Shown here one piece after another: positions 4,946 to 19,963 of a DNA stretch of 20,099 nt. The notes under the pieces were generated by a model. That model ran no database searches, was not told where the DNA came from, and saw only the letters and a program-made list of their open reading frames with translations. A program made the position numbers and the translations under genes. The stretch's first letter is position 1. Each line of letters begins with the position of its first letter. Source of the stretch: a virus; IMG/VR virus record IMGVR_UViG_3300020169_000153, positions 1-20,099 of that record; one strand, 5' to 3'.

Positions 4946-4950
4946 AATAT

Positions 4951-5331: not shown

Positions 5332-5348
5332 TTAATAAACTTATTTTT

Positions 5349-5364
5349 AATATGTATAATAAAT
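5349..5364 (+). promoter_or_regulatory. Putative late promoter of the first collagen-like fibre
   Basis: The box AATATGTATAATAAAT lies 29 bases before the ATG at 5394. It shares the ATGTATAATAAA core with the box at 223. Confidence 0.6.
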
Positions 5365-5393
5365 TGAATACCACAAAATTAAAATAATATATA

Positions 5394-6581
5394 ATGGCAA
5401 ATTGGAAAAAGGTAATAGTTAGTGGGTCTAATGCAGAATTAGCACAACTAACTTTAACGGATTTATCAACACAAGCATCAGAAGACACAGTATTAACTAT
5501 TAACACATCAGGTGTTATTGGTACAAGAGAAAATGCTGCTAGTTCAGGTAGTTCAGGTTCTTCAGGTAGTTCAGGTTCATCAGGTTCAAGTGGTTCATCT
5601 GGTACCTCAGGAGCAGATGGAACAAGTGGTACTTCAGGAACTTCAGGTTCAAGCGGTAGCTCAGGTTCAAGCGGTAGTTCAGGTTCTTCAGGTTCTTCAG
5701 GAACATCAGGAGCAGATGGTACTTCTGGTTCAAGTGGCTCATCTGGAACTTCGGGAGCAGATGGAACTTCAGGTTCAAGTGGTTCATCTGGTACATCAGG
5801 AGAAGATGGAACAAGTGGTTCTTCAGGTTCTTCAGGAACTTCAGGAGCAGATGGTACTTCAGGATCTTCAGGTTCTTCAGGTACTTCAGGAGCAGATGGA
5901 ACAAGTGGTACTTCAGGAACTTCAGGTTCAAGCGGTAGTTCAGGTTCTTCAGGTTCTTCAGGTTCTTCAGGGACATCAGGAGCAGATGGTACTTCTGGTT
6001 CAAGTGGATCCTCAGGATCAAGTGGTACTTCAGGTTCAAGTGGTTCATCAGGTTCATCAGGATCAAGTGGAACAAGTGGTGTAATTAATATTACTAATTC
6101 AGGAGTTAGAAGAGTAATGACTGATATTGATGGTGATAGTGCTAGAGCTAATACAAATCTTACATTTAATGATGTTGGAAGCCCAGAGGGTGATGGATTA
6201 TTAAATGTTGTTGGTGATGTAATTATCACACGTGATTTAACAGTACAAGGTACAGCATCTTTCCAAAATTCAGAAAATTTATTAATAAAAGATAGATTTA
6301 TATTATTAGCTTCAGGTTCAAATTCAGCCGGAGATGGTGGTATTGTAATTCAACAAGTAGATCAAGACTATGGTGATGCCTTTGCTTATGATGGATTATC
6401 ATCATTAAGATGGGGTGTAACAAGTTCATTCCATGCAAGTGGTTCATCATTTACCCCTGATGCCTTTATGGCAACAGTAGTTGTTGGGACAACCAATGAC
6501 CCAGATGATGCACCAACAAGATATGATGCAAAAGGAAATATATTTGTCGCTAATAATCAAGATATTTATATTTACTCTTAA
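5394..6581 (+). CDS. Collagen-like tail fibre protein (shorter paralogue)
   Basis: The 395-residue protein has three parts. Residues 1-49 are an N-terminal module (NWKKVIVSGSNAEL and later GTRENAAS) almost shared with the giant fibre at 7113. Residues about 50-229 are uninterrupted Gly-X-Y triplets, nearly all GSS, GTS and GAD, with no proline. Residues 230-395 are a beta-rich C-terminal domain with GDVIITRDLTVQGTASFQN, LIKDRFILLASGSNS and GDAFAYDGLSSLRWG, elements frequent in phage fibre tips. The glycine at every third residue implies a collagen-type triple helix, so a homotrimeric fibre is likely. The shared N-terminal module probably anchors both fibres to the same virion site. Ser and Thr density makes the shaft a natural O-glycosylation acceptor. 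Confidence 0.85.
   Translation: MANWKKVIVSGSNAELAQLTLTDLSTQASEDTVLTINTSGVIGTRENAASSGSSGSSGSSGSSGSSGSSGTSGADGTSGTSGTSGSSGSSGSSGSSGSSGSSGTSGADGTSGSSGSSGTSGADGTSGSSGSSGTSGEDGTSGSSGSSGTSGADGTSGSSGSSGTSGADGTSGTSGTSGSSGSSGSSGSSGSSGTSGADGTSGSSGSSGSSGTSGSSGSSGSSGSSGTSGVINITNSGVRRVMTDIDGDSARANTNLTFNDVGSPEGDGLLNVVGDVIITRDLTVQGTASFQNSENLLIKDRFILLASGSNSAGDGGIVIQQVDQDYGDAFAYDGLSSLRWGVTSSFHASGSSFTPDAFMATVVVGTTNDPDDAPTRYDAKGNIFVANNQDIYIYS
5541..6080 (+). repeat. Gly-X-Y coding repeat tract (9-bp type units)
   Basis: This 540-bp imperfect tandem tract encodes about 60 Gly-X-Y triplets. Units such as GGTTCAAGT, GGTTCATCA and GGAACTTCA alternate. Serine is spelled with both TCN and AGT codons, so exact DNA repeats stay short. 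Confidence 0.92.
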
Positions 6582-6592
6582 AAAGTAAAAAA

Positions 6593-6832
6593 TTGTTATT
6601 AAAAAAATTAAAAAGTTTTATGGGGTTTAAATCTAACAAAGTTGAAATAAAAGGAGTACCTACTGATAAAGTGGGTACTTCTTTAACTCATAATGTTGAG
6701 TTAACAGAAAATGAAATTGAATTAATTTTACTTACTATTAAAAATAGTTTATTTAAAGGAGAATATGTAGAAACACTTTACAATCTAACTTTAAAGATGC
6801 AAGAAAAATATAAAAAAATTAAAAAAATATAG
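6593..6832 (+). CDS. Small hypothetical protein (79 aa)
   Basis: No family is recognised. The protein is basic at both ends (LLKKLKSFMGFK at the start, KKIKKI at the end) with an acidic helical middle, ELTENEIELILLTIKN (about 36-51), followed by a second helix with YNLTLKMQEKYK. It looks like a small soluble helical-hairpin protein. The start is uncertain: TTG at 6593 includes the amphipathic LLKKLKSF segment, while ATG at 6620 would give a 70-residue product. I prefer 6593 because the extra segment looks protein-like and begins soon after the fibre stop. It lies between two fibre genes with no visible promoter, so it probably shares the fibre transcript. Confidence 0.58.
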   Translation: MLLKKLKSFMGFKSNKVEIKGVPTDKVGTSLTHNVELTENEIELILLTIKNSLFKGEYVETLYNLTLKMQEKYKKIKKI

Positions 6833-6834
6833 TT

Positions 6835-7023
6835 ATGTCTTATAATTTAACAAATTTATCTTTAAGAGAATTACGTGCTCTTAGGAAATCTACTGATTTT
6901 ATTCCTATTACAGGTATTGATGCTATTTTTATAGGTACTATACAAGTAAAGCTAAATCAAAAAATTGAAACTATTGAGCAACAATTAGAGGATAAAGAAA
7001 TTATCCCTTCATCTCCTAGTTAA
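6835..7023 (+). CDS. Small hypothetical protein (62 aa)
   Basis: No family is recognised. The 62-residue product has an N-terminal LSLRELRALRKST helix, a short hydrophobic strand region (PITGIDAIFIGTIQV, about 24-38) and a C-terminal coiled-coil-like helix with KIETIEQQLEDKE. The hydrophobic stretch is too short and broken to be a secure membrane segment. The ATG is 2 bases past the preceding stop, so the two small genes are likely translated from one message. A coupled pair of small helical proteins between fibre genes could be assembly chaperones, by analogy with fibre-assembly chaperones of T4, but no sequence motif supports that directly. Confidence 0.6.
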   Translation: MSYNLTNLSLRELRALRKSTDFIPITGIDAIFIGTIQVKLNQKIETIEQQLEDKEIIPSSPS

Positions 7024-7039
7024 TAGGGAAAATTTAAAA

Positions 7040-7055
7040 CATATTTATAATGGAT
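7040..7055 (+). promoter_or_regulatory. Putative late promoter of the giant fibre/glycosylation operon
   Basis: The box CATATTTATAATGGAT lies 57 bases before the ATG at 7113. I find no equally good box or terminator until 16691, so it may drive all six genes through 16681. Confidence 0.6.
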
Positions 7056-7059
7056 ATTA

Positions 7060-7084
7060 CGGCCCTTCGGGGAAGTGGGCACTT
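7060..7084 (+). other. GC-rich leader with a UUCG tetraloop
   Basis: A conspicuously GC-rich patch in the 5' leader of the giant fibre gene contains CCC-TTCG-GGG at 7063-7072. An alternative pairing joins GCCC at 7062-7065 to GGGC at 7077-7080. It could be an mRNA 5' stabiliser or a translation-timing structure. There is no T run, so it is not a terminator. Confidence 0.45.
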
Positions 7085-7112
7085 TGTGTAACCAACCTAA
7101 TAATAAATTGAT

Positions 7113-10100
7113 ATGCCAAATTGGAAAAAAGTAATTACCAGTGGTAGTAACGCTGAGCTGAATGAAATAAAATTAACAGGTCTTTCAACCCAAGGATCTG
7201 AAGAAACAACCCTAGTAATAAATAGTGATGGTACAGTAGGTACCAGAGAAAATGCTGCATCTAGTGGTACATCAGGTTCTTCTGGGAGTTCAGGTACTTC
7301 TGGATCAAGTGGTTCATCAGGTACTAGTGGTTCATCTGGATCTTCAGGAACTTCAGGTTCTTCAGGTTCTTCAGGTTCTTCAGGAACTTCAGGAGTAGAT
7401 GGTACTTCAGGTACTTCGGGGGCAGATGGTTCTTCTGGAACATCAGGAACTTCAGGTTCAAGTGGATCAAGTGGTACTTCAGGTACTTCAGGAGCAGATG
7501 GTACTTCAGGGACATCCGGTACATCTGGTAATTCAGGTAGTTCAGGATCTTCAGGAACTTCAGGAGCAGACGGTTCATCAGGTACATCAGGAACTTCAGG
7601 TTCATCTGGATCAAGTGGTACTTCAGGTTCAAGTGGTTCATCTGGTACATCGGGTAATTCAGGCTCATCAGGGTCTTCAGGAACATCTGGAACTTCAGGA
7701 GCAGATGGTTCATCGGGTACATCAGGAACTTCGGGTTCAAGTGGTTCATCAGGTACATCAGGTAATTCAGGTTCTTCAGGTTCATCAGGAACATCTGGGA
7801 CTTCTGGAGCAGATGGCTCTTCAGGTTCTTCAGGGACATCAGGAGCAGATGGTTCATCAGGAACATCTGGAACTTCGGGTTCAAGTGGTTCATCAGGTAC
7901 ATCTGGAAATTCAGGAACATCAGGAACATCAGGAACATCAGGTACATCAGGATCCAGTGGATCAAGTGGTGTATCAGGTTCAAGTGGTTCATCTGGTTCT
8001 TCAGGTTCATCTGGTTCATCAGGTACATCTGGAGATTCAGGAACAAGTGGAACTTCAGGTTCTTCAGGAACTTCAGGTTCAAGTGGTTCATCAGGAACTT
8101 CGGGAGCAGATGGTTCATCAGGAACATCTGGAACTTCGGGTTCATCAGGCTCATCAGGAAATTCAGGAAGTTCAGGCTCAAGTGGTACATCTGGTACTTC
8201 AGGTTCAAGTGGTTCATCAGGTACATCAGGTAATTCAGGTTCAAGTGGATCCTCAGGAACAAGTGGTACTTCAGGTTCAAGTGGTTCATCAGGTACATCT
8301 GGTAACTCAGGAACAAGTGGAACTTCAGGTTCTTCAGGTACAAGTGGTTCATCTGGTACAAGCGGCTCTTCAGGTTCATCGGGTACATCAGGACAAGATG
8401 GTAACTTTGGTGGTGCTACATTTGACTATACTTTTAATGTTTCTACTACAATATCAAACCCAGGTTCGGGTAAAGTAAGATTAAATAATGCAACACAAAC
8501 TTCTGCAACTATATCGGCGATTAGTGAAACTGATGATGATGGAAATTCTGTTCAATCATTTTTTGAAACAATAGATTCTTCAACCTCAGCTATAAAAGGT
8601 CATATGAGATTATCAGATAAAGATGATCCCTCTGATTTTATATTATTTGCTATTGATGAATTAGTTGATCAAGGATCTTGGTGGCAATTTACAATAATAT
8701 TTGAAGCACAAGGGGGTAATGCTTTAACAAATAATGAAGATATTATAGCATCATTTGTAACAACAGGTGATAGAGGTGACGATGGTACTTCAGGTTCAAG
8801 TGGTTCATCTGGTACTAGTGGTTCATCTGGTACTAGTGGTTCATCAGGAACTTCAGGTTCAAGTGGTTCATCAGGAACAAGTGGTAATTCAGGAACAAGT
8901 GGAACTTCAGGGACTTCAGGAACTTCAGGTTCATCAGGTTCTTCTGGAACTAGTGGTTCATCTGGTTCTTCAGGAACATCTGGAAATTCAGGTACATCCG
9001 GAACTTCAGGAAATTCAGGCTCAAGTGGTTCTTCTGGAGTGTCAGGCTCAAGTGGATCTTCTGGAACAAGTGGTACATCAGGAACTTCAGGCTCAAGTGG
9101 ATCAAGTGGTGTATCAGGTTCATCAGGTTCTTCAGGAACAAGTGGTAACTCAGGAACAAGTGGTACCTCAGGATCTTCAGGAACAAGTGGTTCATCTGGT
9201 TCTTCAGGAACATCTGGTAATTCAGGTTCAAGTGGTTCTTCGGGAACATCAGGAGCAGATGGAACAAGTGGTACTTCAGGTTCATCAGGCTCATCAGGAA
9301 CTTCAGGAAGTTCAGGCTCAAGTGGTACATCCGGTAATTCAGGTACATCGGGTTCTTCTGGATCTTCAGGAACATCTGGTAATTCAGGTACTTCAGGAAC
9401 AAGTGGTAATTCAGGTTCTAGTGGTTCTTCCGGAGTATCAGGCTCAAGTGGTTCTTCAGGGACATCAGGTAATTCGGGTTCAAGTGGTTCTTCGGGAACA
9501 TCAGGAGCAGATGGAACAAGTGGTACTTCTGGAACAAGTGGTAATTCAGGCTCAAGTGGTTCTTCCGGAGTATCCGGCTCAAGTGGTTCTTCAGGGACAT
9601 CAGGTACATCTGGTAACTCAGGTAGTTCAGGTTCATCAGGTATTAGTGGTTCTTCAGGTTCTTCAGGGACATCAGGTACATCTGGTAACTCAGGTAGTTC
9701 AGGATCTTCAGGAACTTCAGGTTCAAGTGGTTCATCAGGTACATCAGGTTCTTCTGGATCCTCAGGAACATCTGGTAATTCAGGTTCATCAGGTTCAAGT
9801 GGAACAAGTGGTGCTGCTACTATTGGAAATAATGGTGATAATAGAGTAATAACAGCTACTGGTATTGCTGGATCAGTAAATGCTGAAGCAAATTTATTAT
9901 TTGATGGTAGTATATTAAATATTGATGGTTATATTGAGTACGAAGAACCAGCAAGTGCTAATGAAACTGTTGGAGAAATAGTAACCTTTGGTACCTTTAG
10001 TACTATTAATGGTAGTATTGCAGCAGGAGATCTTGTTGTTAGTTTTAGTGCATTATCTGCTCTTAATTGGAAATTAGCAGAAAGCGATACTGAAGATAAT

Positions 10101-10346
10101 GCTAAAGGAATGTTAGGAATAGCTTTAGGTACTAGTGCTGGTAGTGGAGTTCTAATTAGAGGATTTGCTAAATTTTCTGCTTTTCCAAATTCATATGGTG
10201 TTCCTTTATATATTGGATCTACTGCTGGAGAGGTATCTACCTCTGCACCTACAGGTAATGGGGATATAGCTAGGGTAATAGGTTATAGTATTGAAAATGG
10301 AAAGATTTATTTACACCCAGATAACACTTGGGTTAAAAGAGCTTAA
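7113..10346 (+). CDS. Giant collagen-like tail fibre protein
   Basis: The 1077-residue protein has an N-terminal module (1-49; NWKKVITSGSNAEL, GTRENAAS) shared with the fibre at 5394. Gly-X-Y shaft 1 spans about 50-430, a globular insert about 431-557, Gly-X-Y shaft 2 about 558-900, and a C-terminal domain 901-1077. The insert begins FGGATFDYTFNVSTTISNP and ends with ASFVTTGDRGDDG; this domain recurs inside collagen-like phage proteins. The C-terminal domain ends with ARVIGYSIENGKIYLHPDNTWV, split here as residues about 1049-1060 and 1061-1070, typical of fibre-tip or capping domains. X is mainly Ser, Thr, Asn or Ala and Y is Ser or Asp; proline is absent from both shafts. It is likely a trimeric, long adhesion fibre. 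It is followed without a terminator by another fibre-like gene and four sugar-modifying genes. Confidence 0.87.
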   Translation: MPNWKKVITSGSNAELNEIKLTGLSTQGSEETTLVINSDGTVGTRENAASSGTSGSSGSSGTSGSSGSSGTSGSSGSSGTSGSSGSSGSSGTSGVDGTSGTSGADGSSGTSGTSGSSGSSGTSGTSGADGTSGTSGTSGNSGSSGSSGTSGADGSSGTSGTSGSSGSSGTSGSSGSSGTSGNSGSSGSSGTSGTSGADGSSGTSGTSGSSGSSGTSGNSGSSGSSGTSGTSGADGSSGSSGTSGADGSSGTSGTSGSSGSSGTSGNSGTSGTSGTSGTSGSSGSSGVSGSSGSSGSSGSSGSSGTSGDSGTSGTSGSSGTSGSSGSSGTSGADGSSGTSGTSGSSGSSGNSGSSGSSGTSGTSGSSGSSGTSGNSGSSGSSGTSGTSGSSGSSGTSGNSGTSGTSGSSGTSGSSGTSGSSGSSGTSGQDGNFGGATFDYTFNVSTTISNPGSGKVRLNNATQTSATISAISETDDDGNSVQSFFETIDSSTSAIKGHMRLSDKDDPSDFILFAIDELVDQGSWWQFTIIFEAQGGNALTNNEDIIASFVTTGDRGDDGTSGSSGSSGTSGSSGTSGSSGTSGSSGSSGTSGNSGTSGTSGTSGTSGSSGSSGTSGSSGSSGTSGNSGTSGTSGNSGSSGSSGVSGSSGSSGTSGTSGTSGSSGSSGVSGSSGSSGTSGNSGTSGTSGSSGTSGSSGSSGTSGNSGSSGSSGTSGADGTSGTSGSSGSSGTSGSSGSSGTSGNSGTSGSSGSSGTSGNSGTSGTSGNSGSSGSSGVSGSSGSSGTSGNSGSSGSSGTSGADGTSGTSGTSGNSGSSGSSGVSGSSGSSGTSGTSGNSGSSGSSGISGSSGSSGTSGTSGNSGSSGSSGTSGSSGSSGTSGSSGSSGTSGNSGSSGSSGTSGAATIGNNGDNRVITATGIAGSVNAEANLLFDGSILNIDGYIEYEEPASANETVGEIVTFGTFSTINGSIAAGDLVVSFSALSALNWKLAESDTEDNAKGMLGIALGTSAGSGVLIRGFAKFSAFPNSYGVPLYIGSTAGEVSTSAPTGNGDIARVIGYSIENGKIYLHPDNTWVKRA
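7260..8402 (+). repeat. Gly-X-Y coding repeat tract 1 of the giant fibre
   Basis: About 1.1 kb of imperfect 9-bp-type units encodes roughly 127 Gly-X-Y triplets. Larger blocks recur, for example GAGCAGATGGTTCATC followed by GTACATCAGGAACTTCGG near 7700 and similarly near 7850, suggesting growth by unequal recombination. Confidence 0.92.
8784..9812 (+). repeat. Gly-X-Y coding repeat tract 2 of the giant fibre
   Basis: About 1 kb of the same repeat type encodes about 114 triplets. It has more GNS and GVS triplets than the tract in the shorter fibre. It contains an exact 47-bp duplication, listed separately. Confidence 0.92.
9585..9703 (+). repeat. Exact 47-bp direct duplication offset by 72 bp
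   Basis: Bases 9585-9631 and 9657-9703 are identical over 47 positions. The offset of 72 bp is eight 9-bp units and keeps the frame. This indicates recent in-frame duplication within the shaft. Confidence 0.88.
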
Positions 10347-10361
10347 AAATCATTTTAAAAT

Positions 10362-11072
10362 ATGTCTACAACAACTATAAATGCAGGTAAACAAACAGCA
10401 GCTCAATCTGGTACTAAATCTAGTTGGTCGGCAGCTAGAGATGCTACTTCTTCTGCTATACATGTTAATTATACTACATTTCAATCAAATAATACTTCAG
10501 CTATTAGAGAATTATATAGTTCAGGTCCAAAAGGAGGTGCTTATCGATTAAATAGAGCATTTTTCTTTTTCGATACTTCAACCATAACTGATACTATTAC
10601 TGCTATAGATTTAAAAATACAAGGAGCTACAAATGGAGGTTATAATACTAGAGTTGCAAAAAGTACAGCTTTTGGTACTAGTGGTGGAAGTGCATATGTT
10701 AATACAGACTTTAATAATTGGACTACCACAAATGGTCTTCTTCCTACTCCTTATAATGCTTCAAACCACGTTTGGTCCACATCAACAAATACTATCACGT
10801 TGAATGCAACAGCAATTTCTGATGCTAATAGTAATAACTATCTTAATTTAGTAGTTGTAGGTGGTAGTTTTGATTATACTAATACAGAAATGCTTTTACC
10901 CCAAGATTTACTAGGAGGTATTCAATTTGCTAGTACAACAGTATTCCCACAATTATTTATAACACACTCTGCTCCTTCATATGGCAATGACATAATTGGG
11001 ATACCTAATAGTAAATATACAAAAGTAATTGATATATCTAAATCTGATATATCTGAAATAATAGGAGTGTAA
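10362..11072 (+). CDS. Fibre-like structural protein, possible carbohydrate-binding fold
   Basis: The 236-residue product starts 15 bases after the giant fibre stop. It is Ser/Thr/Asn-rich and beta-prone. The segment YRLNRAFFFFDTSTITDTIT (about 61-80) followed by AIDLKIQG resembles the jelly-roll type domains (DNRLRE/CBM96-like) found at ends of secreted and phage adhesins. The last 28 residues, with KYTKVIDISKSDISEIIGV, form a short tail of a kind seen at the ends of marine phage fibre proteins. No catalytic motif is visible. Its place between the giant fibre and the sugar genes suggests a fibre tip or accessory adhesin. The jelly-roll assignment is tentative. Confidence 0.65.
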   Translation: MSTTTINAGKQTAAQSGTKSSWSAARDATSSAIHVNYTTFQSNNTSAIRELYSSGPKGGAYRLNRAFFFFDTSTITDTITAIDLKIQGATNGGYNTRVAKSTAFGTSGGSAYVNTDFNNWTTTNGLLPTPYNASNHVWSTSTNTITLNATAISDANSNNYLNLVVVGGSFDYTNTEMLLPQDLLGGIQFASTTVFPQLFITHSAPSYGNDIIGIPNSKYTKVIDISKSDISEIIGV

Positions 11073-11130
11073 TATAATGTGGAGTAGATAAATAGTTTAC
11101 GTATATTGGTTTTAAATAAAAAAGTTATAA

Positions 11131-12006
11131 ATGAATATTATTTTCCAAATAGATGGTGGTCTAGGTAAAAGCATTATGGCAACTGCCATGATAAAAGTAA
11201 TAAAAAAACAATATAAAAATTCTAATTTAATAGTAGTAACATCTTATACAGATGTATTTTTAAACAACCCCTATGTATTTGCGGTACATCAAATTGGCCA
11301 ACTAAATGGTTTATATCTTAAATATATTAAAGATAAAGATTGTAAAGTTTTTGCTACTGAACCTTATAAAGATACAGACTTTATAACAGAGAAACCTATA
11401 AATTTACTTAAAACTTGGTGTAAAATTTTAGGGTTAAATTATAATAATGAACAACCTCAAATATATTTAACTCAACCTGAGATAGATTATTTTTCTCCTT
11501 ATTATCTTAAAGATAAACCTATTTTAACAATCCACCCCCATGGTGGTCCAGAAGGACTTGGGTATCAATATACTTGGACAAGAGATATCCCAACACCCAT
11601 TATAAAACAAATAATAGAATATTATAAAGAATCTCATTTAATAATTCACATTAAGAGGAAGGACCAAATAGTATATGAGAATACTCTTCAAGCTTTAGAT
11701 GGGTATAGAAGCATAGCAATATTATTACAAATGTCTGATAAAAGATTACTTATAGATTCTTTTACACAACATATGGCTGCTGCTTTAAATTTAAAATCAA
11801 CAGTATGTTGGGTTACAACTAAACCGGAAATATTTGGTTATAAAATACATAATAACATAATAGCTGAACCCTTTACTAAAGAACCAGATTATACTTCTAA
11901 AATTTATAATCCAACTTTTTTATCTGAAAATATACACTCAATTCCTTATAATGATTTGAATGAAGTATTTGATATAGATAAAATAACCTCCTCCTTAAAT
12001 CAATAA
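11131..12006 (+). CDS. GT9-like (GT-B) glycosyltransferase
   Basis: The 291-residue protein has the two-lobed pattern of heptosyltransferase-like GT9 enzymes. The N-terminal part FQIDGGLGKSIMATAMIKVI (about 5-24) is followed by LIVVTSYTDVFLNNPYV, a nucleotide-sugar-transferase-like Rossmann start. The second lobe has ILTIHPHGGPEGLGYQYTW (about 131-149), HLIIHIKRK, and DSFTQHMAAALN beginning near D209, which corresponds to the DTGPMHLAAALG loop of GT9. It has no signal peptide and should act in the infected cell cytoplasm. It is short for GT9, lacks the cysteine finger present in the next protein, and lies 2 bases upstream of it. Substrate is unknown; an ADP-heptose or related donor is only a family-based guess. 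Confidence 0.75.
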   Translation: MNIIFQIDGGLGKSIMATAMIKVIKKQYKNSNLIVVTSYTDVFLNNPYVFAVHQIGQLNGLYLKYIKDKDCKVFATEPYKDTDFITEKPINLLKTWCKILGLNYNNEQPQIYLTQPEIDYFSPYYLKDKPILTIHPHGGPEGLGYQYTWTRDIPTPIIKQIIEYYKESHLIIHIKRKDQIVYENTLQALDGYRSIAILLQMSDKRLLIDSFTQHMAAALNLKSTVCWVTTKPEIFGYKIHNNIIAEPFTKEPDYTSKIYNPTFLSENIHSIPYNDLNEVFDIDKITSSLNQ

Positions 12007-12008
12007 AA

Positions 12009-14297
12009 ATGTTAGATAAAAAACCAAAATTACATCTCCATAGTTGTTATATAGGAACAACAGGATTTAATAACCATACTAGAGATTTTTTTAGAGAAAT
12101 ATCTAAAACATATAAAATAAAAGTTAGAAATTTTACTGTTGGTAAACATTGGAAAGGTTTAGAAGACGAACCCTTTAATAAAGAAGAATATTTAACAACT
12201 TCTGATAAAATTTTTCTAGATCAACAAACATATTTTAATAATGAACATCAATTAAATGATTTTCCAATTTATCAAAATTACCCAAATGTTTTTACCCCTG
12301 ATCTTAATATAATTTTAGCTGAAGTAAATCACCATTATTTTTACCAAGACTATAAAGGTCCAAAGATAGGATACACAGTATGGGAAACAACTCGATACCC
12401 TGATTATTTCTTTGATAAATTAAAAGAATATGAACAATTATGGGTACCTTCAGAATGGCAAAAACAATGCAATATAGAGCAAGGAATGCCTGAGGATAAA
12501 ATAAAAGTAATACCAGAGGCTGTTGATTCCAACATCTTCCACCCAAACCCAGATGTAACTTTACCTGAATATGATGATGGTAGGTTTAAATTTGTCCATT
12601 TTGGTAGATGGGATTATAGAAAATCTACTAAAGAAATAATAGAAGCGTTTTTAGAAGAATTTGGAGAAGATGAACCTATAGATTTAGTTTTATCTATAGA
12701 CAATAGATTTGCAAAGGATAAATTAGAGACTACTGAAAATAGATTAAAACATTATAAACTTTTAGATCCTAGATTAAAAATTAAACATTTTCCTTCTAGA
12801 GAAGACTATGTAAAATATTTACAAAAGGGTCATGTATTTCTATCCTGTGCTCGTGCTGAAGGGTGGAATTTACCTTTAATAGAAGCAATGGCATGTGGTA
12901 CACCTTCTATTTATTCTAACTGTAGTGCCCAATTACAATTTGCAGAAGGTAAAGGATTACCTGTTAAAATAACAGGTAAAAAACCCGCTATAATGGGTGA
13001 ATATAGTACATTCTCTCAATCTGATATGACAGGTGAATTTTATACTCCTGATTATGAAGACTTAAAAAAAGTAATGAGGGATGCTTATAAAAATTATGAT
13101 AGACATAAAAAACAAGCATTAAAAGAATCTAAAGAAATAAGAGATAAATTTACTTGGGAAAGAGCTGCAAAACTAGCAAGTATAGAAATTGATAGATTAT
13201 ATAATAATCTTCCTGAAAATAAAGTAGAAATAAGTTTTGGTGAAGGACCTAAAGTTCAAACTTATGGTACTAAAAATAAAAAATATTTTGTAGAGTTTAT
13301 TGATTCACGAAATGATAAAGTTATCCATTCTTCTACTATTACAAATAATATGTGGACTACGTGTAGTAAACAATATTATATTCCCTGGATTATTAAAATT
13401 AATGGAGAAATAGTACATAAATTAAATTTAAAAAATAAAGTTGTTAAAATATCATTAGATTCAAAATCAGTAGGTGATACTTTAGCATGGGTACCCCAAA
13501 TTTTAGAATTTCAAAATAAACATAAATGTGAAATAATAGCTTCAACTTTTCACAATGAGTGGTTTGAAAACTTGGAAGCATATAAAAATATTAAGTTTGT
13601 ACAACCCAATTCCAATGTTGAGGCTTATGCTCATTATACAATAGGATGGTTTAAAAATAATAAAAAATGGGATGAAGGTTTTAAAAACCCAAATTCCCCT
13701 AATACTATCCCTTTAATTCAGACTATTACAGATATATTAGGTTTACCATATAAAGAAATTAATAAAGGTGTCAATTTCACCCCAGGTAAAAGACCTATAA
13801 AAGGAAAATATATTTGTATAGGACCTAAATCAACAGCAGGTTTAAAAGAATGGCCTTATCAAAATTGGAGAGAACTAGCAAAAAAATTGCATAAAAAAGG
13901 ATATAAAATAGTTAATTTATCTTATGAAGGATTTAAAGGAACTAATATAATTAATAAACAAAAATTAAATTGGGATAAAACATTTAATTACCTCCATCAC
14001 GCAGATTTATTTATAGGATTAGGATCAGGTTTATCTTGGGTTAATTGGGCTTTAAATAAAGAAACAGTAATGATTAATAATTTTATCCCCTATGGTTATG
14101 AATTTACTAGTTACTTAACTAAAATCGAAAATAATTCTGTATGTAATAATTGTTGGGTAAGTAAAGATTATACTTTTGATGCTGGTGATTGGGATTGGTG
14201 CCCTAAAAATAAAGGAACTAAAGACCAACATATTTGTCAGAAATCAATAACAGTAGACCAAGTATATAATAAAGTTATAAATATTTTAAATGGTTAA
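12009..14297 (+). CDS. GT4 glycosyltransferase fused to a BAHT (Aah/TibC-like) protein heptosyltransferase domain
   Basis: The 762-residue protein is bipartite. Residues 1 to about 400 are a GT-B GT4-type transferase: FKFVHFGRWDYRKSTKEIIE (194-213) and CARAEGWNLPLIEAMACGTP (280-299) with the E-X7-E pair E284/E292. Residues about 426-762 match the bacterial autotransporter heptosyltransferase family: VKISLDSKSVGDTLAWVPQI (479-498), CEIIASTFHNEWF, KSTAGLKEWPYQNWREL, HADLFIGLGSGLSWVNWALN (664-683), and a four-cysteine set C712, C715, C731 and C743 in CNNCW and WCP contexts, corresponding to the metal (iron) finger described for TibC. BAHT enzymes transfer heptose to serines of surface adhesins. 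The next gene overlaps by 8 bases. The likely acceptor is the Ser-rich fibre, by inference. Confidence 0.86.
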   Translation: MLDKKPKLHLHSCYIGTTGFNNHTRDFFREISKTYKIKVRNFTVGKHWKGLEDEPFNKEEYLTTSDKIFLDQQTYFNNEHQLNDFPIYQNYPNVFTPDLNIILAEVNHHYFYQDYKGPKIGYTVWETTRYPDYFFDKLKEYEQLWVPSEWQKQCNIEQGMPEDKIKVIPEAVDSNIFHPNPDVTLPEYDDGRFKFVHFGRWDYRKSTKEIIEAFLEEFGEDEPIDLVLSIDNRFAKDKLETTENRLKHYKLLDPRLKIKHFPSREDYVKYLQKGHVFLSCARAEGWNLPLIEAMACGTPSIYSNCSAQLQFAEGKGLPVKITGKKPAIMGEYSTFSQSDMTGEFYTPDYEDLKKVMRDAYKNYDRHKKQALKESKEIRDKFTWERAAKLASIEIDRLYNNLPENKVEISFGEGPKVQTYGTKNKKYFVEFIDSRNDKVIHSSTITNNMWTTCSKQYYIPWIIKINGEIVHKLNLKNKVVKISLDSKSVGDTLAWVPQILEFQNKHKCEIIASTFHNEWFENLEAYKNIKFVQPNSNVEAYAHYTIGWFKNNKKWDEGFKNPNSPNTIPLIQTITDILGLPYKEINKGVNFTPGKRPIKGKYICIGPKSTAGLKEWPYQNWRELAKKLHKKGYKIVNLSYEGFKGTNIINKQKLNWDKTFNYLHHADLFIGLGSGLSWVNWALNKETVMINNFIPYGYEFTSYLTKIENNSVCNNCWVSKDYTFDAGDWDWCPKNKGTKDQHICQKSITVDQVYNKVINILNG

Positions 14298-15732
14298 AAA
14301 AAATAAATTTACATGGATAACTGGAGGGGATAAAAGTTATTTATTAATGATAGAAATATTAGCTAAAAGTTTGTTAAAATATTCTAAATACAATCTTATA
14401 GTGTATAGTTTTAATTGTGATTCTACAATCGATTTACCTAATGTAACTAATAAAAGAATTGATTATATACCTAAACCTACGTCAAATTTTACACATGAAC
14501 CCGATTTATTTAATAAAGATTATTCTATTTACTTTGCTAAATATTTAGCAAGTTTAGATTCACTAAATGAAAATTTTAATAGTTTTGCTTGGATAGATGG
14601 TGATGCCTTTGCAACTAAAAATATAGATTCTTCATTACAGTATTTACCATCTTTAAAAGATTATCCATTATTTATGAAATATTTTAACCCTGATATATAC
14701 CAATGGAGACAACATGGAGGTATAAAATTAGATGGTAGATATGGTAATGAATTAGCTTCTATAAAAAATATAAAAAGAAATCCTAACAACAAATTAATAG
14801 CAACTGGGTTTTATTTTTACGATAAAAAAAGTAAACCCTTTTTTGAAAAATGTCTAGAATGGAATAAAGAATTAAATCAATATTCAATTAAAATCTATAT
14901 TGATGATAATGCCTTTTCAGAAGAAAGAGTAGCTAATAATATATTATGGGAAGAAGATAAAAAAGAAAATTTACCTATTACCTGGAATAATTATTACAGT
15001 TCAAAAGAAGAAACAATAGTAAATCCTTATTATTTAAAACAAGGATTTGATGTAATGTATGATACATTAACCCTTCAACCTTACTTTATTCATGGTCCCG
15101 ATCCTTCAGTAAAGCCTAAAAATGCTGAAACTTTAAAATTAGCCTTTAATGATTACCAAACTACTAAATTAATGGTTGTTGCTCACCCTGATGATGAATT
15201 AATATTTGGAGGAGCAGAATTAATAAAATATGGCCCAGAATATAAAGTTGTTTGTCTTACTAATAAATTAAATAAAATACGAAGTAAAGAATTTGAAACA
15301 GTAATGAAAAAATTAAATGTAGGTTCTTGGGAAATGTTTGATTATGAAGATACACTATACCCTACCCAACAATTTAATTTAAAAGATATTTTAAAAAGTA
15401 GAGAATGGGAAAAAATAGTTACTCATAATCCTATAGGTGAATATGGTCACCCACAACATAAACTAGTATTTGATATTATACTTAATATTACTAATGATTT
15501 TTACGTATTTGGTAAATCCCAACAAAAACTAGACCAAAATACTTTGGATACCAAAAATAATTTACTTACATTATATACGTCGGAAACACCTATTATAAAT
15601 CAATTATTAAATAATAATGGGGATTGGTTTAAAAGCAATGATCCTTTTACTAACTATATAGAATATGAGTGTATCGAAAAATACGATGTTAGTAAAAATA
15701 AAGATAACTATATAAAATGTTATGAAAAATAA
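14290..15732 (+). CDS. Probable GT-A glycosyltransferase fused to a PIG-L/LmbE-type N-deacetylase
   Basis: The 480-residue protein has two domains. Residues 1 to about 285 look like a GT-A nucleotide-sugar transferase with the metal-binding D-X-D in FAWIDGDAF (D103, D105) and an IATGFYFYDKKSKPFFEKCL segment (170-189). Residues about 293-410 match PIG-L/LmbE deacetylases: MVVAHPDDE (H299, D301, D302) and HNPIGEYGHPQHKLVF with H387 and H390 as the second zinc-binding pair. PIG-L enzymes remove the acetyl group from GlcNAc-type sugars. The fusion suggests addition of an N-acetylhexosamine and its deacetylation to an amino sugar. No membrane segment is present. The gene overlaps both neighbours, 8 and 11 bases, so the three are translationally linked. 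Confidence 0.83.
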   Translation: MVKKNKFTWITGGDKSYLLMIEILAKSLLKYSKYNLIVYSFNCDSTIDLPNVTNKRIDYIPKPTSNFTHEPDLFNKDYSIYFAKYLASLDSLNENFNSFAWIDGDAFATKNIDSSLQYLPSLKDYPLFMKYFNPDIYQWRQHGGIKLDGRYGNELASIKNIKRNPNNKLIATGFYFYDKKSKPFFEKCLEWNKELNQYSIKIYIDDNAFSEERVANNILWEEDKKENLPITWNNYYSSKEETIVNPYYLKQGFDVMYDTLTLQPYFIHGPDPSVKPKNAETLKLAFNDYQTTKLMVVAHPDDELIFGGAELIKYGPEYKVVCLTNKLNKIRSKEFETVMKKLNVGSWEMFDYEDTLYPTQQFNLKDILKSREWEKIVTHNPIGEYGHPQHKLVFDIILNITNDFYVFGKSQQKLDQNTLDTKNNLLTLYTSETPIINQLLNNNGDWFKSNDPFTNYIEYECIEKYDVSKNKDNYIKCYEK

Positions 15733-16681
15733 TTTAATAATAATTCTTTCCCATTGTGATTCAAAGGAAAAAATAGAAATATTAACAGATAATATTAAAA
15801 AATTAAAGACTCAAAATTTTGATATTTTATTATTATCACACACACCTATACCTTCTCATATTCAACAAATGATAGAGTATTTTATTTATGATAAAAGTAA
15901 CCCTATAATTAATTGGCCATATAGGGGGATGGTTTTTTGGAAAAAAATATTAGATGATACTAACTATCGCTTACAAACTATATACCCAGATTATGGTTGG
16001 ACTGCTTTTAATCAAATTTTATTAGGTGGTAATTTAGGTTTATCTTTAGACTATAGTCATTTTAGTTTTATAAATTATGATATCCAAATTACAGATTTAA
16101 TAATTACTGCTTTAAATAATCCTACTTCTTTTTTAACATCTAAGGTACAGCCTTGTAGTGAATCAAACCCTAGATACCCAAGCTTTATGCTTAATATTTT
16201 AAATAGGAAAAATTTAAAAGCTTTATTACCTCTAATTAATAAAGAACATTATATGTGTGACACCCTCCCATGGAAAGAACCTAGCAGGTTTAAATCAGCT
16301 GAAGATTACTGGGGCCATTTAATAACTAATTTTTTATACACTATCCATCCAGAACCTATAGTTGATTTAATTGTATTTGATAACCCTGAATCTATGTTTA
16401 ATTATAGTGGCACAAATAAATTTAAGCTTTTTTTCCAAAACAATCATACTCATAATACTATTCAAAATGATGGGGTATCTAAAATTTTACTTTTTGATAT
16501 TCAAATTTCTAATTTAAAATTAATAGTTAATAATGAATATACAGATATAATAAAAGGTAAAAATGAATTAATAACTTTACCTAAAATTAAAACTATAGGT
16601 TTTATATTAGATGGTGAGTATACTGACTTAACAAATAAATATAAAGAATCAATTTACCAAACAATAGAATACACTGAATAA
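15722..16681 (+). CDS. Probable glycosyltransferase (GT-A-like)
   Basis: The 319-residue protein begins with an N-terminal region NLIIILSHCDSKEKIEILTD (4-23), then FDILLLSHTPIP (33-44) and YFIYDKSNPIINW (53-65). This pattern I associate with GT-A-like transferases of marine phages and bacteria. The motif INYDIQITDL (117-126) sits where a metal-binding acidic motif would be expected, but a clean D-X-D is absent. The C-terminal third (about 215-319) is beta-rich and may be a separate accessory domain. The gene overlaps the upstream deacetylase fusion by 11 bases and ends the sugar block, 9 bases before the next promoter box. Family membership is moderate confidence; donor and acceptor are unknown. 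Confidence 0.62.
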   Translation: MKNNLIIILSHCDSKEKIEILTDNIKKLKTQNFDILLLSHTPIPSHIQQMIEYFIYDKSNPIINWPYRGMVFWKKILDDTNYRLQTIYPDYGWTAFNQILLGGNLGLSLDYSHFSFINYDIQITDLIITALNNPTSFLTSKVQPCSESNPRYPSFMLNILNRKNLKALLPLINKEHYMCDTLPWKEPSRFKSAEDYWGHLITNFLYTIHPEPIVDLIVFDNPESMFNYSGTNKFKLFFQNNHTHNTIQNDGVSKILLFDIQISNLKLIVNNEYTDIIKGKNELITLPKIKTIGFILDGEYTDLTNKYKESIYQTIEYTE

Positions 16682-16690
16682 AAATTAATT

Positions 16691-16706
16691 AATATTTATA
16701 AATAAC
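16691..16706 (+). promoter_or_regulatory. Putative late promoter with exact TATAAATA
   Basis: The box AATATTTATAAATAAC contains TATAAATA at 16697-16704, the exact T4 late consensus. The ATG follows at 16711, so a start about 6 bases past the box would give a leaderless or nearly leaderless mRNA. Confidence 0.68.
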
Positions 16707-16710
16707 AATA

Positions 16711-16965
16711 ATGAGTAAAAAAATCAAACTATCAGAAGAAGAATTAACAATTCTTAGAGAATACCAAAAAAACCAAAATGCAATTACTTTTGACTTAGGA
16801 CAAGTTGATATCCAAAAAGCATTTTTAGAAGGTCAAAGAGCTTCAATTTTGGATGGTTTAGCAGATTTACAAGAAAAATCAAATAAAACAGCTAAAGAAC
16901 TCCAAAAAAAGTATGGAGAAGGAAATATAGATTTAGAAACAGGGGAATTTATTACCCCAGAATAG
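16711..16965 (+). CDS. Small hypothetical phage protein upstream of the sheath gene
   Basis: The 84-residue protein is largely helical. It has KLSEEELTILREYQKNQNAI (6-25), a short strand-like TFDLGQVDIQKAFLEG, then a long charged helix (about 40-67) and a C-terminal YGEGNIDLETGEFITPE tail. I recall small proteins of this layout with the GNIDLETGEF ending in marine T4-like phages, but know no function. It has its own near-leaderless promoter box directly after the sugar genes and lies 59 bases before the tail sheath gene, which has a separate box. A tail-assembly or coiled-coil scaffold role is possible from context only. Confidence 0.7.
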   Translation: MSKKIKLSEEELTILREYQKNQNAITFDLGQVDIQKAFLEGQRASILDGLADLQEKSNKTAKELQKKYGEGNIDLETGEFITPE

Positions 16966-16983
16966 GTTTTTGAGTCCTTCTTT

Positions 16984-16999
16984 AATATTTATAATAAAA
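16984..16999 (+). promoter_or_regulatory. Putative late promoter of the tail sheath gene
   Basis: The box AATATTTATAATAAAA matches the core of the set and lies 25 bases before the ATG at 17025. Confidence 0.68.
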
Positions 17000-17024
17000 C
17001 AATTATTAAAATAATAAAAATAAG

Positions 17025-19376
17025 ATGGCAGAAACATTAATATCTCCAGGAGTATTAGCAAGAGAAAACGATCAATCACTTGTTACGGCTCAACCATTAG
17101 TAAGAGGTGCGGCTATAATAGGCCCAACCGTAAAGGGTCCAGTTGAAAAACCAACCTATGTTAGTTCATTTAGTTCATTTAATGCTCTTTTTGGAGGAGC
17201 ATTAGAAAGTGGATCTACAGATTATACTTATTTAACTTCAATAGCAGCAGATAACTATTTTTCAAGTGGAGGTAGTTCTTTATTAGTAACAAGAGTAACA
17301 AGCGGTTCTTTTTCACCTGCTCTATCAACCAATATTGAAAACAATGTTGAAACAGGAGATGGTGGGTTAGTAGGAGGTTTAACTCCTTGGACTGGTGGTA
17401 CAAATACTGGTGATACAGCAGCTACATTCTCTAACGTTGCTTTAACTAGTACACCTGGTTCAGGTGCAAAAGCAACAGTAACAACAGTAGTAAGTGGATT
17501 ATTAGTAGTTTCAACAACAGCAGTACCAACAGGTACTGGAGTTGCAGCTGGTGCATATGCAGCTAGTGTATCTTCAGATCCTATTACAATAACTGCAGGT
17601 ATGGTTGATACAGCTGGTGCTTCAGGTGGTACCGCTGTAATTACTACAGATGCAGCAGGTGGAGTAGTAGTAGGTGTTACTTTAGCAGTAGCTTCAAGTA
17701 CAGGATATGCTGCTGATTCAATCATTACAATACCAGAAGCAACATTACAAGCAGATGCACAATTAGGTTCTGGAGGAACAGGTGGAGATATAGTTATCCA
17801 ATTAGCAGGAACTAATGTAGGTTCAGCAATTTCAACAGTTTCAGTTACAACAGAAGGATCAGGATATGTAGCAGGTAATGCAGTTACAATAGCTGCGGGA
17901 TTATTAGGTGCGGGATCTACAGAAGCTTCTCACACATTATTAGCCTCAGAAATAGAAAATGCAAATACTTTTATATTAGAAACACTTTCTGAAGGAATAA
18001 TTATGAATAACACAACTCCAGTAGGAGCAGATTCAGCAGGAACAGAATTATCAGGTGGTGCATTATCAAGTGGATCAGCAGATAATATTAGATGGGAAAT
18101 TGCAAGTGTAAATACTGCTTCAGGTGTGTTTTCACTACTTATTAGACGTGGTAATGATAATAATAATTCAAAAGTAATATTAGAATCATTTAATAACATT
18201 TCATTAGATCCATTTTCTCCAAATTATATTTCAAGAGCAATTGGTGATATTACTTCTAATGTAGTAGTAGCAGCAGATGGTTCTGGAACATATTTACAAG
18301 AATCAGGTTCTTATCCAAATGTTTCTAATTACGTAAGAGTAAAAGAAGTAAAATTTAATACTCCTAAATATTTCCAAAATAATGGAATAGCAAAAAATGA
18401 ATTTACATCATCTTTACCACAAATAGGTTCAGGTTCTTTTGATCAAGCAGTAGGTTCAAATCTTAATTCCATATCATTTAATCGTTTCTACGATAAAATT
18501 GATGGAACAAATACACAAGGTTTAATTGGAACAGATTATACAAATGCTATTAATTTATTAGCTAATCAAGATGATTATCAATATAATGTAATCTCGGCAC
18601 CAGGTTTATATTTTTCAAATTATGCTACTCAGTGTAATTTGATTAAAAACAATACTATTGCAAGAGGTGATGCTATTTATATAATGGATTTAGTTCCTTA
18701 TAATACAGCAATTAACACTGTATTACAAAATGCATCATCACTAGATTCTAGTTATGCAGCGGCATATTGGCCTTGGTTACAAACTGTTGATCCAAGTACT
18801 GGATTATTAGTTTATGTTCCAGCTTCAACAATGATTCCAGGAGTATATGCCTTTACAGATGCTTCAAGTGATCCATGGTTTGCACCAGCAGGTATTACAA
18901 GAGGTGGAATGGGTTCAGTAGTAAGAGCTGAAAGAAAATTAACATCAGCAAACAGAGATACTTTATATGAAGGTAATGTTAACCCAATTGCTACATTCCC
19001 ACAACAAGGAGTTGTAGTATTCGGACAGAAAACATTACAAAAAGCAGCAACTGCTTTAGATAGAGTAAATGTACGTAGATTGTTAATAACACTTAAAGAT
19101 TATATTTCTCAAATTGCTGATAACTTAGTATTTGAAGCAAATACAATTGCTACAAGAAATAACTTCTTAACACAAGTAAATCCATATTTAGAAAGTGTTC
19201 AACAAAGACAAGGTTTGTATGCATTTAAAGTAGTAATGGATGAAACAAATAATACACCGGATGTAATAGATAGAAATGAGTTAATCGGTCAGATTTTCTT
19301 ACAACCAACTAAAACAGCTGAATTTATTATACTTGATTTCAATGTATTACCAACTGGAGCAACATTCCCAGCATAA
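17025..19376 (+). CDS. Tail sheath protein, gp18-like, with beta-rich insertion
   Basis: The 783-residue product is a contractile tail sheath subunit. The N-terminal part has MAETLISPGVLARENDQS (1-18), GAAIIGPTVKGPVEKP (28-43), the ALFGG element (54-58) and SGGSSLLVTRV (81-91), all typical of sheath proteins. The C-terminal handshake domain includes VNVRRLLITLKDYISQIADN (about 680-699), RNNFLTQVNPYLESVQQRQG and TAEFIILDFNVLPTGATF. T4 gp18 is about 659 residues; the excess lies at about 105-310, an Ala/Gly/Thr/Val-rich insertion with at least two related beta units (ending in STGYAADSIITI and GSGYVAGNAVTI). The insertion probably forms an outward-facing domain. It has its own promoter box and is followed by the tube gene, as in T4. 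Confidence 0.92.
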   Translation: MAETLISPGVLARENDQSLVTAQPLVRGAAIIGPTVKGPVEKPTYVSSFSSFNALFGGALESGSTDYTYLTSIAADNYFSSGGSSLLVTRVTSGSFSPALSTNIENNVETGDGGLVGGLTPWTGGTNTGDTAATFSNVALTSTPGSGAKATVTTVVSGLLVVSTTAVPTGTGVAAGAYAASVSSDPITITAGMVDTAGASGGTAVITTDAAGGVVVGVTLAVASSTGYAADSIITIPEATLQADAQLGSGGTGGDIVIQLAGTNVGSAISTVSVTTEGSGYVAGNAVTIAAGLLGAGSTEASHTLLASEIENANTFILETLSEGIIMNNTTPVGADSAGTELSGGALSSGSADNIRWEIASVNTASGVFSLLIRRGNDNNNSKVILESFNNISLDPFSPNYISRAIGDITSNVVVAADGSGTYLQESGSYPNVSNYVRVKEVKFNTPKYFQNNGIAKNEFTSSLPQIGSGSFDQAVGSNLNSISFNRFYDKIDGTNTQGLIGTDYTNAINLLANQDDYQYNVISAPGLYFSNYATQCNLIKNNTIARGDAIYIMDLVPYNTAINTVLQNASSLDSSYAAAYWPWLQTVDPSTGLLVYVPASTMIPGVYAFTDASSDPWFAPAGITRGGMGSVVRAERKLTSANRDTLYEGNVNPIATFPQQGVVVFGQKTLQKAATALDRVNVRRLLITLKDYISQIADNLVFEANTIATRNNFLTQVNPYLESVQQRQGLYAFKVVMDETNNTPDVIDRNELIGQIFLQPTKTAEFIILDFNVLPTGATFPA

Positions 19377-19390
19377 AAAAAAGAAAACCG

Positions 19391-19406
19391 AATATTTATA
19401 ATAAAA
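19391..19406 (+). promoter_or_regulatory. Putative late promoter of the tail tube gene
   Basis: The box AATATTTATAATAAAA is identical to the one at 16984 and lies 12 bases before the ATG at 19419. A separate box for the tube fits the high copy number needed. Confidence 0.68.
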
Positions 19407-19418
19407 TAAACATATAAA

Positions 19419-19907
19419 ATGGCAGTATTAAACCCAAACGAAATATTTTTCACAGCTTTCGAGCCAAAACAAAAGAACAGATTTATAGCTTTTGTAGATG
19501 GATTCCCAGCATACATCATGAAAGGTGTAGGAGCCGTAACTGTATCTCAAGGAACAGTACCTTTAAATCATATTAACGTTCAACGTTTTGTAAAAGGTAA
19601 AACAACTTGGGGGACAATTCAATTTACATTATTTGACCCAATTACTCCATCTGGTGCACAATCAGTAATGGAATGGGTTAGATTACATCATGAATCAGTA
19701 ACTGGTAGAGATGGTTATAGTGATTTTTATAAGAAAGATCTTACAATCAATGTACTAGGACCTGTAGGTGATATCGTTTCAGAATGGATTATCAAAGGAG
19801 CAATGATTACAGAAGCTTCATTTGGAGATTATAACTGGGATACTGAAAATGCTGCTCAAGAAATTACAATGACAGTTCAACCAGATTACTGTGTATTAAA
19901 TTTCTAA
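19419..19907 (+). CDS. Tail tube protein, gp19-like
   Basis: The 162-residue protein matches the T4 tail tube protein gp19 in length (about 163) and layout. Key segments are MAVLNPNEIFFTAFEPKQKN (1-20), RFIAFVDGFPAYIMKG (21-36), the WGTIQFTLFDPITPSGAQSV stretch (64-83), MEWVRLHHESVTGRDGYSDF (84-103), and KGAMITEASFGDYNWDTENA (125-144) ending in an ITMTVQPDYCVLNF strand. Tube hexamers stack into the rigid channel through which DNA passes after sheath contraction. It follows the sheath gene directly, the T4 gene 18-19 order, and is closed by an intrinsic terminator. Nothing odd is seen. Confidence 0.93.
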   Translation: MAVLNPNEIFFTAFEPKQKNRFIAFVDGFPAYIMKGVGAVTVSQGTVPLNHINVQRFVKGKTTWGTIQFTLFDPITPSGAQSVMEWVRLHHESVTGRDGYSDFYKKDLTINVLGPVGDIVSEWIIKGAMITEASFGDYNWDTENAAQEITMTVQPDYCVLNF

Positions 19908-19939
19908 AAATTTTACTCACCCCTAATTTTTCAAAAAAC

Positions 19940-19963
19940 GCTTGGCTTCGGTCAAGCTTTTTT
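19940..19963 (+). terminator. Intrinsic terminator after the tail tube gene
   Basis: A 7-bp stem (GCTTGGC, UUCG loop, GTCAAGC, one G-U pair) is followed by six T residues. Six A residues at 19933-19938 precede the stem, so it may also work in reverse. Confidence 0.9.

Follow-up and report, generated by a model that had tools for sequence, protein, structure and literature searches.

The 20,099-base viral record IMGVR_UViG_3300020169_000153, the whole of which is called the window here, belongs to a contractile-tailed phage. A block of genes on its plus strand, running from a long fibre gene through four sugar-modifying genes, is probably a phage-encoded protein O-glycosylation cassette, the main acceptor of which would be the phage's own Ser/Thr-rich Gly-X-Y fibre. 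Glycosylation of the virion fibre is now the best-supported reading of the block. It is favoured because the TibC-like enzyme of the block recurs next to Ser/Thr-rich Gly-X-Y tracts in divergent phages and next to GTSG tracts in some bacteria. An earlier note on this DNA had proposed that the phage glycosylates its own fibre shafts. The association of enzyme and tract, their proximity and the bacterial pairs support this proposal in part, whereas the classical identity of the enzyme, a strict linkage to the fibre and a general operon are not supported.

The proposed acceptor is encoded at 7113..10346 (plus strand). It is a real open reading frame (ORF) of 1077 residues, as the earlier note had it, and contains two Gly-X-Y runs with 245 triplets in all, including 107 GSS, 95 GTS and 20 GNS. 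Ser makes up 34.8% of the protein, Thr 12.0% and Pro 0.7%. The Collagen family PF01391 matches it with 334 bits against a cut-off of 27.2, and no match to the strand-loop-strand repeats of TIGR04415 was found in it. A further Ser/Thr-rich Gly-X-Y fibre, by which the earlier note has to be corrected, precedes it (5394..6581, plus strand, 395 residues, 60 triplets), and the two have an N-terminal anchor in common, with agreement at 36 of 51 residues. In 15 Ser/Thr fibres from outside the window, 59-99% of the triplets have Ser at the Y position; two more fibres for which triplets were counted, in the compared loci L155 and L161 (L-numbers designate such loci throughout), are of the Pro/Ile type. 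Near-identical contigs have unequal fibres: the counterpart of the window fibre in L002:4961-8338 has 1125 residues and 261 triplets, so that either the repeat number changes quickly or the assemblies collapse repeats. In the Microcystis phage Mel-JY01 (L030:2-3052) a long plus-strand Gly-X-Y ORF is partly annotated as hypothetical genes on the opposite strand.

The enzyme that would start the glycan is a two-domain glycosyltransferase (12009..14297, plus strand), in which profile matches place a GT4 domain at residues ~1-390 and a TibC/BAHT-like domain at residues 406-757. Its score against TIGR04414 is 203.2 bits, barely above the cut-off of 200; the classical bacterial class scores 654-663. 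The match to TibC (PDB entry 4rap) has an E-value of 4.5e-34. The equivalents of TibC Asp-110, Thr-226, Lys-230 and Trp-305 are kept as D490, T609, K613 and W677, and the four Cys of the iron finger are present as C712, C715, C731 and C743. A set of 82 aligned BAHT-like domains consists of 29 encoded on bacterial contigs and 53 from the phage side. All 82, and so every one of the 53 phage-side rows, have the catalytic Asp, equivalent to Asp-110, and any given one of the four Cys is kept in 52 of those 53. Arg-286 of TibC, on the other hand, is a Thr in the window enzyme. The accessible portion of PMC4358343, from which the roles of the TibC residues are taken, describes Arg-286 as contacting the adenine of ADP-heptose. 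Arg occupies this position in 7 of 7 classical domains, in 10 of 53 phage-side rows and in 1 of 11 domains of the GTSG class described below, in which one genome is counted twice. A segment near the β-hairpin thumb, which in TibC contains Phe-265 and Val-266 and serves the dodecamer, is ten residues shorter, its placement varying between alignments. Given the Thr in place of Arg-286, the shortened segment and the lack of a TIGR04415 match in the fibre, the identity of a classical adhesin heptosyltransferase, which the earlier note had implied, is not supported. HldE, considered as a sign of an ADP-heptose donor, was rejected, since 8 of 32 records gave weak matches and none was above the cut-off. 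The domain occurs in other arrangements as well. Tandem BAHT-like copies, the second one without the N-terminal barrel portion of the model, are present in L036:3762-6916, L180, L188 and L166, and a phage chain of 1454 residues in L561:6011-10375 consists of an FkbM methyltransferase, a DXD glycosyltransferase, a GT4 and a BAHT-like domain.

The association of the enzyme with this kind of fibre was surveyed in viral records picked blind to the enzyme, by a DNA pattern of ten G-[S/T]-[S/T]-like codon triplets, and in two control Gly-X-Y kinds; each of the three picks comprises about 80 listed matches of at least 120 stretches. To enter the Ser/Thr sample, a listed record had to be 20 kilobases (kb) or longer and, in the stretch examined, to contain a Gly-X-Y ORF with 20 or more triplets and a Ser/Thr share of at least 0.5; all 50 records that qualified were taken. 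Fourteen listed rows of at least 20 kb failed these criteria and were removed before the enzyme search (L195, L199, L204, L208, L209, L213, L214, L219, L230, L233, which is the same record as L194, L245, L249, L258 and L272). In the first control (n = 50), 32 listed records are 20 kb or longer and have 10 or more triplets, and 18 loci of whatever length come from outside the listing; L361, L367 and L389, which have no ORF, L378 (the same record as L373) and, by oversight, L316 were left out. The control matched in G+C content (GC) takes in every listed record of 20 kb or more (35 in all), 24 of which have at least 10 Gly-X-Y triplets in the stretch examined. The median GC of the stretches examined is 0.39 in the Ser/Thr sample, 0.48 in the first control and 0.38 in the GC-matched control.

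TIGR04414 was found above the cut-off in 22 of the 50 Ser/Thr-rich records, in none of the 50 records of the first control, where there was one weak match of 11.7 bits, and in none of the 35 GC-matched records. Ten records of the first control are shorter than 20 kb, and without them the count is 0 of 40. Among records of at least 60 kb the enzyme is present in 14 of 19, compared to 0 of 13 and 0 of 15 in the controls. The p-values are 1e-6 and lower, which overstates the association because viral contigs are related to one another. The recurrent linkage of fibre and BAHT-like gene in other phages, the absence of which had been set beforehand as grounds for refutation, is thus borne out.

In 15 of the 22 positive records a Ser/Thr tract ORF lies within 4.3 kb of the enzyme gene. 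Uniform placement would give 3.8 within 5 kb and 6.9 within 10 kb, numbers that assume one fibre per record and are too low where there are several. The two genes overlap by 8 nucleotides (nt) in L552 and are 32 nt apart in L555, on the same strand in both cases; in L560 they are 18 nt apart on opposite strands. The tract-enzyme distance in L141-L143 is 67. Microcystis phage Mel-JY01 (PP395634), an isolate, has a Ser/Thr Gly-X-Y ORF about 1.7 kb from a GT4-BAHT-like gene. The remaining seven positive records (L553, L554, L557, L565, L566, L572 and L573) have no Ser/Thr tract ORF in the stretch examined.

A similar pair is found in bacteria. A BAHT-like gene is present in 2 of 369 Gammaproteobacteria and 15 of 301 Methylococcales drawn, and the 17 distinct loci, all of which were examined, fall into two score classes, ten at 298-327 bits and seven, the classical ones, at 654-663 bits. 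An ORF with a GTSG tract lies 13-154 base pairs from nine of the ten genes of the 298-327-bit class, pairing a single-domain BAHT-like gene with a tract protein (L580, L581, L588, L589, L590 and L592-L595); L591 is the only locus of this class without such an ORF nearby. Methylobacter luteus is one bacterium that has both genes. Seven pairs are on the same strand and two (L588 and L594) are convergent. The tract ORFs begin with a signal-peptide-like or lipoprotein-like sequence, as judged by eye from the N-termini, and the tract of L593, which contains His, was likewise recognized by eye. None of the seven classical loci has a GTSG tract in the ~1.5 kb examined on each side, and TIGR04415 strand-loop-strand repeats were found in three of the four classical-class neighbors tested. 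When the tree is rooted on a classical sequence, a single clade among the phage enzymes takes in nine of the ten GTSG-class genes, with L581 separate, and the classical loci group together, so that the bacterial counts are not independent. No paper on a pair of this kind was found in the literature search. The window fits the GTSG-tract BAHT-like class proposed here, in which a BAHT-like gene is near one for a protein with a G-[ST]-[STA] tract: the fibre gene ends 1.66 kb upstream of the 12009 gene, on the same strand and in the same block.

These observations lead to a broader proposal, the chances of which we regard as even, that TibC-like enzymes have two classes of acceptor. The first, already known, is that of the strand-loop-strand adhesins. 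The second, common in phages and also occurring in some bacteria, would be G-[ST]-S tracts. Phages would thereby make densely glycosylated shafts of collagen-like fibres that are almost Pro-free and have up to almost 1000 triplets, probably with a sugar other than ADP-heptose, the outer glycan being varied by exchangeable accessory genes.

The arrangement of expression signals fits one late unit, as far as motifs and terminators can indicate. From the 7113 fibre on, the intergenic gaps are 15, 58, 2, -8, -11 and 29 nt, as short or negative as the earlier note had described them. A terminator scan located strong hairpins on the plus strand at 189, 2191 and 19940, the last of which (19940..19957) follows the tube gene. 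There is no strong terminator-like site on this strand inside the block, and its one weak site, at 10020, is within the fibre gene. A promoter-like motif, TATTTATA, has 12 sites on the plus strand of the window. Nine of them are at most 100 nt upstream of a start (1121, 1693, 2246, 3432, 6593, 7113, 16711, 17025 and 19419), although such space amounts to 9.5% of the window (binomial 1e-7); two others are within ORFs (10954 and 14008), away from any start. The site at 7042..7049 (plus strand) is 71 nt before the fibre start, and that at 16693..16700 (plus strand), 18 nt before 16711, closes the block. The motif precedes none of the starts from 10362 to 15722, hence none of the sugar genes. The absence of a terminator and of a promoter box inside the block, claimed earlier, thus holds for strong hairpins and, ahead of the gene starts, for this motif. 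The idea of a single operon is sustained in that the genes form a co-directional unit; its limits are less certain, because by terminators alone the unit may span 2191 to 19940 and take in the neck-like, sheath and tube genes. The spacing of TATTTATA ahead of the fibre, sheath and tube genes is repeated in L002, L003, L004, L009, L110 and L124, at -71 or -74 in the case of the fibre. L004 and L110 have an extra site in front of a small gene that itself precedes the GT9-like one, and no site was found before the fibre ORF of L014. A reading as the T4 late motif, TATAAATA, was dropped, since TATTTATA is its reverse complement.

Three further sugar genes are all on the plus strand. The protein encoded at 11131..12006 has no sequence-family match above the cut-off and nothing credible in a PDB sequence-profile search, but its structure model (pLDDT 76.9) has a GT9 fold of the GT-B type, with 3tov as the best PDB match (E 5.1e-10), followed by WaaF and WaaC. 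The 14290..15732 protein has a C-terminal PIG-L deacetylase-like part (PF02585, 46.4 bits against a cut-off of 28.2) with AHPDDE at residue 298 and HPQH at residue 387, which we take to represent the PIG-L family motifs AHPDDE and HPxH. Its N-terminal part is read as GT-A-like from a DGD motif alone; a PDB search gave no useful match. The 15722..16681 protein lacks a sequence-family match and a credible hit in the PDB sequence-profile search. Its predicted fold is GT-A-like (Foldseek E 2e-5, modest TM-scores). VIA-align, a second look at Foldseek's list, contributes folds of the GT-A and nucleotidyltransferase kinds that concern residues 1-221 only, with Z up to 14.3 over 169 residues. Because nucleotidyltransferases score about as well as GT-A enzymes, the protein is called GT-A-like and is not assigned an exact role. 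The four sugar genes of the earlier note are therefore confirmed in their places and, for two of them, by the PIG-L and the GT4 and TIGR04414 matches; the 11131 and 15722 proteins are known from predicted folds.

On late expression, the TibC-like domain would put the first sugar on residues of the tract, most likely on Ser at the Y position. The fused GT4 domain and the GT9-fold and GT-A-like enzymes would then lengthen the glycan, and the PIG-L domain would deacetylate an N-acetyl sugar; the order, with the BAHT-like step first and the others extending, is one that we infer. The glycans may stiffen or protect the long shaft and may alter its recognition. Stiffening or protection is proposed because the tract is almost free of Pro.

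The remaining genes place the block in a variable slot of the tail region. The genes lie at the coordinates and in the order given earlier, and all assigned ones are on the plus strand. Family searches recognized PhoH, a head-tail-adaptor (neck-like) gene, the tail sheath (17025..19376, plus strand) and the tail tube (19419..19907, plus strand), so the cassette has neck-like genes on one side and the sheath and tube genes on the other. The slot is bounded by the 3962 gene and by a small gene (16711..16965, plus strand), which mostly adjoins the sheath gene in relatives and marks the end of the slot. It contains the two Ser/Thr-rich Gly-X-Y fibres, the four sugar genes, three small ORFs and a protein of 236 residues (10362..11072, plus strand). 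The latter has no family match and no credible match in a PDB sequence-profile search; homologs are present in L003, L009, L012, L013, L014 and L036, and it is possibly a fibre tip.

A profile search found BAHT relatives in at least 567 of 600 stretches, 80 of which were kept, and a close GT4-BAHT or BAHT-like gene is present in 28 viral loci. The bacterial collection gave 14 loci, of which at least one, L110, with sheath and tube genes, is a phage contig in a genome bin. In INPHARED four records have a BAHT-like domain, too few for a survey, and another set of 133 records matched mostly via the GT4 domain. Among loci chosen by the BAHT-like gene, the PIG-L, GT-A-like, C-methyltransferase, Polysacc_synt_2 and FkbM parts vary. 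Among those chosen by the tube gene, there are loci in which the slot contains no fibre gene and no sugar gene, for example L040, L049, L065, L084 and L093-L095. L011:8021-10146 has a sugar C-methyltransferase and a Polysacc_synt_2 gene in the slot before the 16711 gene, which suggests an unusual branched sugar, and ORFs of like size occur in L013 and L014. In L029:9984-10805 a sulfotransferase gene is flanked by BAHT-like and GT9-like genes. A cytidylyltransferase-like gene of Mel-JY01 was left uncounted, because it scores only at the Pfam cut-off.

Several results weigh against fibre glycosylation. TibC itself modifies Ser, not Thr, on an autotransporter adhesin, according to the accessible text of PMC4358343, and thus an acceptor of another kind. 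RfaE domain II was above the cut-off in 0 of 32 records, which bears on an ADP-heptose donor only indirectly. Six of the 15 close phage pairs are on opposite strands, nine being on the same strand, and two bacterial pairs are also on opposite strands; a shared operon of fibre and sugar genes is therefore not the general rule, and our confidence is slightly lowered. Among 22 records of at least 20 kb in the tail-tube lineage, four have both tract and enzyme, one the tract only, five the enzyme only and 12 neither, which is a trend only (Fisher p 0.12). Where 6 kb is available on both flanks of the BAHT-like gene (42 loci anchored by it), a Ser/Thr Gly-X-Y ORF occurs inside that distance in 20, only a Gly-X-Y ORF poorer in Ser/Thr in nine and none in 13; bacterial contigs and near-duplicates are included in this count, and the short tract of L116 escapes its rule. 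PF01391 is absent from five of 32 long records, all five linear and often fragments. The records being mostly fragments, a missing fibre is weak evidence. Nevertheless, the coupling of fibre and enzyme is not strict, as several relatives have the enzyme and no Ser/Thr Gly-X-Y fibre in the available DNA. The median Pro share of X and Y positions is 0.0 in Ser/Thr tracts compared to 0.188 in the first control, but the tracts of the GC-matched control are likewise Pro-poor (0.012), so that low Pro does not set the Ser/Thr tracts apart. For this reason the idea that sugar is a substitute stabilizer, prompted by the discussion of the EPclA fibre in the accessible part of PMC3368898, is only a guess.

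The sugar genes might instead remodel the surface polysaccharide of the host and exclude other phages, the fibre being a neighbor in a common hypervariable island. This is the published interpretation of the glycosyltransferases in the pelagimyophage tail-fibre island, as far as the available text of PMC7029224 goes, and it would suit the C-methyltransferase and Polysacc_synt_2 genes of L011 with the like-sized ORFs of L013 and L014, the relatives that have the enzyme without a Ser/Thr fibre and the six opposite-strand pairs. We consider it unlikely, given that characterized enzymes with a TibC-like domain act on protein serine (PMC4358343, in its accessible portion), that the other Gly-X-Y records (0 of 50 and 0 of 35) lack the enzyme above the cut-off and that the sugar genes of the window have no promoter-like motif of their own. 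It is rather improbable that the cassette glycosylates mainly another virion protein, such as the sheath, the tube, a neck protein or a fibre encoded elsewhere, instead of the Gly-X-Y fibre. The enzyme does lie between a 3962-like gene and the 16711 or sheath gene with no Gly-X-Y fibre in the available DNA of L038, L045, L108, L128, L132-L135 and L149, and mycobacteriophages have enzymes of their own that glycosylate the tail tube and the capsid (Freeman 2023, cited in the accessible text of PMC12363180); however, the enrichment is specific to Ser/Thr Gly-X-Y tracts, bacterial homologs pair with GTSG-tract proteins, and fragments may have the fibre elsewhere. An ecological association, in which certain phages have both Ser/Thr tracts and many glycosyltransferases with no functional link, would agree with the mere trend in the tail-tube lineage and with p-values that ignore the kinship of interrelated contigs, but is very improbable, because no record of the GC-matched control has the enzyme above the cut-off, the tract is found close to the gene and the same pair occurs in bacteria.

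Fibre glycosylation by the phage resembles several known systems in part. The algal virus PBCV-1, a chlorovirus, encodes a GT-A enzyme, which we take to be A064R, for glycosylation of its major capsid protein, by the titles of PDB entries 2p6w and 2p73; the fold of the 15722 protein matches these entries only weakly. With AAH/TibC (TIGR04414; PDB entries 4rap and 4rb4) the window shares nearly the whole domain, the catalytic Asp, the Thr-226, Lys-230 and Trp-305 equivalents, the four Cys and a nearby repeat-protein gene. It differs in the fusion to GT4, the replacement of Arg-286, the shortened segment near the thumb, its location in a phage and an acceptor candidate that is a Gly-X-Y tract without a TIGR04415 match. 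The mycobacteriophage proteins Che8 gp110 and Corndog gp38, likened here by their described role and not by comparison of the enzymes, are glycosyltransferases reported to act on the phages' own virion proteins, although their targets are capsid and tail tube (PMC12363180, accessible text). The pelagimyophage tail-fibre island, or host recognition cluster, likewise brings several glycosyltransferases together with fibre genes in a single variable slot of the structural region, but it is interpreted as modifying the host O-chain, and the available text of PMC7029224 does not mention BAHT-like domains. EPclA, a collagen-like tail fibre of a prophage, also has a Gly-X-Y shaft in a likely phage fibre, but is Pro-rich, unlike the window fibre, and unglycosylated in its recombinant form (PMC3368898, accessible part). 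For glycosyltransferases of aquatic jumbo phages, virion glycosylation is named as a possibility in the available portion of PMC12619734. No report of the pair of BAHT-like enzyme and Gly-X-Y fibre was found in the open-licence literature searched for BAHT or heptosyltransferases in connection with phages and for collagen-like phage fibres that are glycosylated.

The glycosyltransferases of marine phage fibre islands have so far been regarded as tools against the host surface, to judge from the accessible text of PMC7029224. The pair of acceptor and enzyme is open to testing by co-expression, and a TibC-like gene with a G-[ST]-S tract next to it provides a sequence rule by which more cases, bacterial ones included, can be found. 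If fibre glycosylation is correct, many phages with Ser/Thr Gly-X-Y fibres would coat their own fibres with sugar, which would bear on the stability of the shaft, on host recognition and on evasion.

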